Positions 18,840-21,580 of a stretch of 35,976 nucleotides of DNA are shown here, piece after piece. The notes under the pieces are model-generated. The model was not told the DNA's origin and did no database searches. It saw nothing but the letters and a program-made list of their open reading frames with translations. The number at the start of each line of letters is the position of its first letter. Position 1 is the first letter of the stretch. Where the stretch lies: positions 1-35,976 of the forward strand of contig JAAUUD010000003.1 in assembly GCA_012031655.1 (NCBI GenBank). Direction: 5' to 3'. The stretch is from Anaerolineae bacterium (lineage in GTDB: Bacteria; Chloroflexota; Anaerolineae; Aggregatilineales; J027). A program made the position numbers and the translations under genes.

Positions 18840-19440
18840 CCGCAGCTTGCCGCCCAGCATCCAAAAAACCATTGAGGCGTTTTCGCGCTTGCCAGGCATT
18901 GGGCCGAAGTCTGCTTCGCGGCTCGCCTACTACCTGCTCCGTTCCCCGGATGAGGTAGCCCTGAGCCTGGCGGCTGCCCTGACCGACCTCAAGCAAAACA
19001 CGCGCTTTTGCAGCATTTGCTTTAATATTACCGAGCAGCCCATCTGTGCGATCTGCGCAGACGAGCGCCGCGATCGCGACAAGGTGGTGGTAGTGGAAGA
19101 ACCGTTAGACCTGGTGGCGATGGAGCGTACCAGGGCATATAACGGGCGCTACCATGTTCTGCACGGCGCGATCCGCCCGGTCGAGGGGATCGGTCCAGAT
19201 GATCTCAAAATTCGGGAGCTGGTTGCACGAATTCCGGCAGAAGGCATCCTTGAAGTCATCATCGCCACCAATCCCAGTACCGAAGGCGAAGCAACCGCGT
19301 TCACGGTGCAGCGTTACCTCGAAGGGCTGGGCGTGCGTATCACCCGCCTGGCGCGTGGTCTGCCCACAGGGAGCGACCTGGAGTATGTAGACTCTCTCAC
19401 GCTCACCCGTGCTCTGCAGGGCCGCTACGACCTCTCTTAA
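18820..19440 (+). CDS. recR: Recombination protein RecR
   Basis: FSRLPGIGPKSASRLAYYLL, C4 zinc motif CSICFNITEQPICAIC, Toprim VVVVEEPLDLVAME, GLPTGSDLEYVDSLTLTRAL. Confidence 0.96.
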   Translation: MSLTPVNRSLPPSIQKTIEAFSRLPGIGPKSASRLAYYLLRSPDEVALSLAAALTDLKQNTRFCSICFNITEQPICAICADERRDRDKVVVVEEPLDLVAMERTRAYNGRYHVLHGAIRPVEGIGPDDLKIRELVARIPAEGILEVIIATNPSTEGEATAFTVQRYLEGLGVRITRLARGLPTGSDLEYVDSLTLTRALQGRYDLS

Positions 19441-19481: not shown

Positions 19482-19511
19482 TTGAGGACCCTTTCAAAGA
19501 TGGAGTAAGCT
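19482..19511 (+). promoter_or_regulatory. Promoter-like P1 upstream of leader element A
   Basis: TTGAGG - N18 - TAAGCT. Confidence 0.4.
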
Positions 19512-19556
19512 GCTCGCTACTAAATTGGGCAGCTCAAGAAACTGAGCATAAGAAGC

Positions 19557-19635
19557 GAGGACGCTGAAGCACGCTAGGTGGTTAGGGGGTAGAAACACCC
19601 TCCTACAAACGATCGCTGCCGTGCTCACCAACGCA
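19557..19635 (+). ncRNA. Structured leader element A (homologous to element B)
   Basis: Shares ACGCTGA...GCT(C)AGGTGGTTA(A)GGGGG...AAA...CTGCCGTGC with element B; outer stem AGCACG(19568-19573)/CGTGCT(19620-19625). Confidence 0.45.
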
Positions 19636-19672
19636 AGTTTAACCCAATTTAATCCAAAATCTTAAATCCCCC

Positions 19673-19701
19673 TTGACGGCAAAACAGGGTGGGAGTAATA
19701 T
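19673..19701 (+). promoter_or_regulatory. rRNA operon promoter P2
   Basis: TTGACG - N17 - TAATAT. Confidence 0.65.
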
Positions 19702-19760
19702 ATTTTTTACGACGTCAACGAAGATCAAACTTCGGTGGGGTTGAGAAAACCGAGCGAAGG

Positions 19761-19860
19761 AGGAGGCGCGCACGCTGAGAGCAGCAAGCAGCTCAGGTGG
19801 TTAAGGGGGAGGGAAAGCCAGCCCCCGGTAAAGAGGACCACTGCCGTGCCCGCCGCCGCG
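19761..19860 (+). ncRNA. Structured leader element B (homologous to element A)
   Basis: Same core as A; outer stem GGCGcGCACG(19765-19774)/CGTGCcCGCC(19845-19854), inner GGGGG/CCCCC hairpin. Confidence 0.45.
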
Positions 19861-19883
19861 CGAGAAAGCTCCGCGGCGTTTTT
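19854..19883 (+). terminator. Intrinsic-terminator-like hairpin in the 16S leader
   Basis: CGCCGCG-c-GAG-AAAG-CTC-CGCGGCG followed by TTTTT. Confidence 0.6.
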
Positions 19884-19894
19884 GATGCGAGGTT

Positions 19895-19906
19895 TGCACC
19901 TTAACA
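19895..19906 (+). promoter_or_regulatory. boxA-like antitermination motif upstream of 16S
   Basis: TGCACCTTAACA, 10/12 match to the E. coli rrn boxA TGCTCTTTAACA. Confidence 0.5.
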
Positions 19907-19910
19907 GCAG

Positions 19911-19925
19911 AATAGTGGTAAACAG
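19911..19925 (+). other. 5' arm of 16S pre-rRNA processing stem
   Basis: AATAGTGGTAAACAG is perfectly complementary to CTGTTTACCACTATT at 21530-21544. Confidence 0.75.
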
Positions 19926-19991
19926 CAAGTGCGTGCAACAAAAGCAAGAACCCAGCGTGCTCAGCTCTGCGGAGTGGAGCGCGAACAAATT

Positions 19992-21485
<1,494 letters not shown>

Positions 21486-21529
21486 AAGGCTGGCTGAGCG
21501 CTCACGCGCCAGCCGCAAGCAGGCCAGGA

Positions 21530-21544
21530 CTGTTTACCACTATT
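21530..21544 (+). other. 3' arm of 16S pre-rRNA processing stem
   Basis: CTGTTTACCACTATT, 15-nt perfect complement of 19911-19925. Confidence 0.75.
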
Positions 21545-21580
21545 GTGCGGTTGAGAGGTCAACCGTGCGCCAGCTGGAGA

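Follow-up and report, generated by a model that had tools for sequence, protein, structure and literature searches.

A predicted, terminator-linked leader RNA upstream of boxA in rRNA operons of Anaerolineae, present in two tandem copies at the locus analysed: a candidate attenuator

The window, i.e. the whole stretch of 35,976 nucleotides analysed here, comes from a Chloroflexota genome of 3.8 Mb (470 contigs, 70% complete), and the closest named relatives of its recR are found in Anaerolineae and Promineifilum. All features of the window given below lie on the plus strand. The recR gene ends at 19440, directly upstream of the leader region, and is followed by one rRNA operon in the order 16S rRNA (19992–21483), tRNA-Ile, tRNA-Ala, 23S and 5S. 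The 551-base gap between recR and 16S contains two leader units, A and B. In a preliminary description of this DNA a promoter-like sequence had been placed before each unit; the one before B, P2 (TTGACG-17-TAATAT, 19673–19701), passes a consensus scan and is the last predicted promoter before 16S, whereas the one before A, P1 (TTGAGG-18-TAAGCT, 19482–19511), is weak, being recognised in the sequence but missed by the scan. The 5′ strand of a leader–trailer helix (19922–19983) precedes 16S; its partner is found at 21497–21577, and the duplex has an energy of −48 kcal/mol.

Unit B, behind P2, extends from about 19709 to 19883 and, when folded to 19895, has a z of −2.80, with none of 200 shuffles as stable. 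The P2 transcript would open with a hairpin, SL1-B (19710–19743; pair probabilities 0.67–0.93), in the position of the conserved SL1 of relatives. It is followed by the purine-rich AAGGAGGAGG (19757–19766) at the foot of SL2, similar to an AGGAGG present in many relatives, and by SL2-B (19765–19854), the former element B, whose outer stem is GGCG-C-GCACG/CGUGC-C-CGCC (pair probabilities 0.71–0.97). The last base of this stem is 19854 and the first of the terminator stem is 19855, so that the 3′ arm of the one meets the 5′ arm of the other, as had been claimed. By sequence and predicted fold, the structure between P2 and 16S at 19855–19883, SL3, is an intrinsic terminator, composed of the hairpin GCCGCG-C-GAG-AAAG-CUC-CGCGGC (pair probabilities 0.99–1.0) and a U-run (19879–19883); a standard terminator scan does not report the hairpin, probably on account of its bulge. 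After a spacing of 12 nt the U-run is followed by boxA2 (GCACCTTAACAGCAGAATAGTGG, 19896–19918), the presumed NusB/S10 loading site, which was absent from the preliminary description and is placed here between the terminator and 16S; it has no mismatches to the relatives' consensus, with 0 expected by chance. It resembles the boxA of E. coli, CUUUAACAA. As 12 nt can fit no promoter, P2 transcripts reach 16S only by passing the terminator, and every promoter predicted for 16S in this layout lies upstream of the terminator. The key neighbour of the folded element is this boxA downstream of the terminator.

Unit A (19518–19652) comprises a closing helix (19521–19529/19643–19651), a small hairpin (19532–19547) and SL2-A (19566–19626), the former element A, with outer AGCACG/CGUGCU, middle GUGGUU/GAUCGC and inner GGGGU/ACCC stems; its fold has a z of −4.20, and 0 of 200 shuffles are as stable. 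The view that the stretches at 19557–19635 (A) and 19761–19860 (B) are duplicated leader elements upstream of 16S is borne out. Their alignment scores 24.5 (shuffles: mean 7.8, maximum 14.5), that of the whole leaders 28.5, a value reached by 0 of 1,000 shuffles (mean 9.1, maximum 15.0), and every other place in the window scores 15 or less in the leader-repeat alignment. The repeat starts further 5′ than previously described, at AAACTGAGC (about 19538) and AAACCGAGC (about 19746), and the promoter segments of A and B form a weaker repeat, equalled by 28 of 1,000 shuffles. Pair probabilities agree with the earlier observation that GCACG/CGUGC stems close both copies (A, 19569–19573/19620–19624; B, 19770–19774/19845–19849). 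The same closed element with the same order of inner stems is predicted in each; the middle stems differ (GACCAC versus GAUCGC), and the partner GUGGUU pairs with either. Also as described, only B adjoins an intrinsic terminator, A being without one. No other copy of A above chance was found in its own genome, and a mobile or dispersed repeat was rejected on this basis. At a sibling locus from the window's own family, L009, there is a single leader copy; the duplication is a local event of the window's lineage. Copy A, behind P1, would be a tandem duplicate of the unit in which the fold was kept and the terminator was not.

A long-range helix, H1-B, is tentatively placed around SL2 and SL3 (19747–19895), with AAACCGAGCG (19747–19756) pairing with UGCGAGGUUU (19886–19895) at predicted probabilities of 0.59–0.93, and such a closing helix is predicted around A, B and single relatives of differing sequence. 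In a swapped-partner energy test, 7 of 25 fell in the top tenth (p = 0.009) and the overall Fisher p was 0.057, whence the helix is only suggestive; simpler swap tests on the best helix had little power for H1 and SL2. Further downstream, ACCCAGCGTGCTCAGCTC (19949–19967, 3′ of boxA2) shows complementarity with the 5′ arm of SL2, over 12 nt at 92% in A and over 15 nt at 80% in B; 8 of 500 shuffles do as well as its duplex with the arm of SL2-B. It also lies within the leader–trailer helix, and a competing fold is possible.

The leaders of relatives were surveyed in a sample of Anaerolineae, consisting of the stretch upstream of 16S at 149 loci, of which 128 were left once near-duplicates had been discarded. 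Lineages were assigned from tool-given family labels and from the named relatives of recR. The boxA2 matrix of these 128 leaders has the consensus ACCTTAACAACAGAA, and several of its columns reach 100% or come close to it. In 64 of the 128 leaders a terminator-like hairpin with a T-run was detected in the 200 nt preceding boxA2, where dinucleotide shuffles lead one to expect 7.2; for the roughly one-half of class leaders in which no terminator was detected, contig breaks and the simplicity of the finder explain some part. In the taxonomic order of the window (families f1–f4 and f7) the terminator mostly lies 8–36 nt before boxA2 with no promoter between, and the hairpin and U-run keep their position across families with little common leader sequence. 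Such families also have some terminator sequence in common: CCG...CGG, frequently as CCGA...UCGG, is retained in the stem at many loci (L101, L144 and L113 among them), and UUUUUGUCU is a frequent tail. In other orders a second promoter is often found 3′ of the terminator and before boxA2, and many relatives have the arrangement promoter, hairpin, boxA1, SL2, terminator, second promoter, boxA2 and 16S. Within family f6 some genera have a window-like order of parts with a very short leader, and others stack promoters, boxA-like sites and terminators; L012, L015, L024 and L026 of this family carry repeated promoter/boxA-like/GTTCGG-type terminator modules before 16S. At L108 (1600–2150, minus strand) there are three serial promoters, the first two each with a hairpin, a boxA-like site and a terminator, the full order being promoter–SL1–boxA1–terminator–promoter–SL1–boxA1–SL2–terminator–promoter–boxA2–16S. 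Taken with two tandem matches at L121 to the covariance model R1 described below, this stacking indicates that tandem copies of the module recur, A and B in the window being one instance.

Outside the class, a family of genomes of about 4–6 Mb with up to three 16S matches each (f67), which appears to be Chloroflexus-like, has the layout promoter, leader, terminator, boxA2 and 16S; at L209–L213 and L218 boxA follows immediately on the terminator that ends the leader, and no promoter separates the two. The layout was not seen by eye at the loci inspected in families f65 (large genomes, up to eight 16S copies) and f63 (small genomes). NusB is encoded, over the cut-off, in 16 of 16 genomes, the window's own included. 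Other elements near rRNA leaders were a T-box-like match (L144, 459–787; 75.8 bits, below the gathering score of 93) and a TPP riboswitch (L141, 509–659).

Upstream of the terminator, the boxA2 matrix finds boxA1-like sites at p ≤ 0.05 in 16 of 64 leaders against 3.2 expected, some of which are −35 boxes; clear examples of boxA1 are those of L009 (TCCTTAACAATTC), L030, L012 and L117. With the same matrix no boxA1 is recognisable upstream of the window's terminator, where the best score at the expected place is −12.1, and control there may for this reason rest on SL2 or on partial termination.

For families that resist alignment, fold statistics were used. The 100 nt before the terminator have a mean z of −1.99 in the window's order (n = 15, Stouffer −7.7), against −0.60 for controls further upstream, and of −1.71 in other leaders (n = 26, Stouffer −8.7), against −0.54. 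In 14 of 15 leaders of the window's order the 3′ arm of SL2 abuts the terminator (Fisher p = 1.3e-4; class p = 3.5e-4), and in these 15 leaders its mean pairing is 0.92, compared with 0.67 when the upstream part is shuffled. Family f32 could be aligned (32 leaders, plain MAFFT, A2) and displays three helices in which 99.7% of cells pair. Changes on both sides occur in 7 of 20 pairs and in 30 cells, compared with 7.5 cells in shuffles (0 of 500 shuffles for each), and the covariation score is 0.170 against 0.102 (0 of 500), an excess that is lost when partners are slid, in shuffles that ignore the relatedness of the leaders. SL1 and SL2 are conserved and covarying in this family. The covariance model R1, built from its leaders, matches the 16S leaders of many other families at full length, that of L009 (E = 0.0099) among them. 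In the window, A and B are unmatched even with filters off, the best hit being 0.8 bits on the wrong strand. Across 247 whole genomes R1 has matches in 18, with one copy each, and those also present among the 16S loci lie directly upstream of 16S. That the sequence of SL2 varies from family to family speaks against a classical ligand aptamer; an aptamer sequence conserved across relatives, as in a riboswitch, was not found.

The family had not been recognised in the preliminary description, and an Rfam 15 search of the A/B region likewise returned only chance-level matches at E ≤ 10; over the leaders of ten class-level loci there was no credible match. Relaxed thresholds brought up mir-2780 and Hsp83, which were rejected as chance. 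Among the open-licence texts reached by literature searches, none describes a leader of this kind from Chloroflexota. Of the earlier suggestion of a repeated regulatory RNA acting with the terminator, the absence of an Rfam family, the support for structure and, in many relatives, the link to a terminator stand; the element itself is recast here as the local form of a widespread architecture. The best reading is an uncatalogued rRNA leader in which premature termination would check rRNA transcription before an antitermination complex loads.

An rRNA leader attenuator is favoured over an insulator, a folding or processing element and a small RNA, and we would put its chances at about even. In its favour are the terminator's place in the path of P2 transcripts, its recurrence before boxA2 in relatives, the strong folding just ahead of it, the abutting arm of SL2, the covariation in family f32, the single copy per genome, the presence of NusB and the suppression of intrinsic termination by the E. 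coli complex in vitro; against it are the unrecognisable boxA1 of the window and the roughly one-half of leaders with no detected terminator. Transcription from P2 would yield a leader RNA of about 175 nt, folding into SL1, SL2 and the terminator SL3; we infer that some polymerases stop at the U-run (19879–19883) and release this RNA, and that the remainder go on to boxA2 (19896), where they would acquire the NusB/S10 antitermination complex before making rRNA. The choice between stopping and read-through would probably be tuned by SL2, which stacks directly on the terminator. In relatives, boxA1 could let an antiterminated polymerase from the first promoter pass the terminator, and the class-wide SL1–boxA1–SL2–terminator module, judged by analogy, looks like an E. 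coli-type antitermination site with its own terminator. A bolder version, which we regard as rather doubtful, is that a phylum-specific leader RNA switch gates rRNA synthesis in Chloroflexota before boxA, its folded element responding to some factor, for instance an alarmone, a ribosomal protein or free S10/NusB, with tandem stacks in some lineages.

The terminator might alternatively act as an insulator, keeping transcription that strays in from recR or from weak upstream promoters out of the rRNA operon, with the folded leader being incidental. The position of recR directly upstream in the window would suit this role, as would the many class members in which the terminator is followed by a promoter and then by boxA2; in the window, its order and the Chloroflexus-type leaders, however, the terminator is 3′ of the last predicted promoter, and an incidental fold is at odds with the covarying SL1 and SL2 of family f32, so that insulation is an unlikely explanation. 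It is also improbable that SL1–SL3 and H1 serve 30S maturation as a scaffold or as a nuclease site, in the manner of hA/hB of E. coli, with an incidental U-run. The closing helix predicted around A and B and the leader–trailer helix point in that direction, and removal of leader helices in E. coli modestly lowers 30S activity (PMC10250234), but H1 is not significant overall and the hairpin and U-run hold their place where little else of the leader sequence is shared. With promoter, folded body and terminator all present, P2–SL1–SL2–SL3 could even be a gene for a stand-alone, trans-acting small RNA that happens to precede 16S; this is very improbable given that R1 matches only once per genome, that copy A has no further match above chance in its own genome, and that 16S in the window's layout would be left with no other predicted promoter.

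Operons for rRNA are viewed as controlled at their promoters, with boxA shielding them against termination. The strong terminator predicted here between boxA and the last promoter, kept across an order and also seen in Chloroflexus-type genomes, would imply a control point in early elongation, and the idea is testable since Chloroflexus is culturable. If correct, the attenuator reading would bring a further entry for the RNA-family catalogues and a rule for annotating the rRNA leaders of this phylum.

Attenuation is known in E. coli rrn leaders at tL, a weak site of premature stop located after boxA; both systems would stop early in the rRNA leader, but the one described here has a strong hairpin and U-run before boxA. 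The E. coli rrn leaders contain boxA and boxC together with a boxB-like hairpin, and in vitro both Rho-dependent and intrinsic termination are suppressed by the complex when it is reconstituted with SuhB (PMC6614801). That nut-like site is paralleled by the hairpin-then-boxA order of the relatives (SL1, which covaries, then boxA1; in the window SL1 is predicted and boxA1 unrecognisable), by boxA before 16S and by the presence of NusB. Unlike the E. coli site, an intrinsic terminator, abutted by a further folded element, lies here between the promoter and the last boxA, and relatives have tandem promoter–boxA–terminator modules. The dfn leader with LoaP (PMC12691694) similarly places an intrinsic terminator after an RNA hairpin, and read-through of the dfn terminator is controlled; that leader belongs to a Bacillus biosynthetic operon and depends on a NusG paralogue. 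The pre-16S helices hA/hB and the leader–trailer helix (PMC10250234) likewise form a folded leader upstream of 16S, and a leader–trailer helix is present here too, but in the leaders described here SL1–SL3, terminator included, are all upstream of boxA2.
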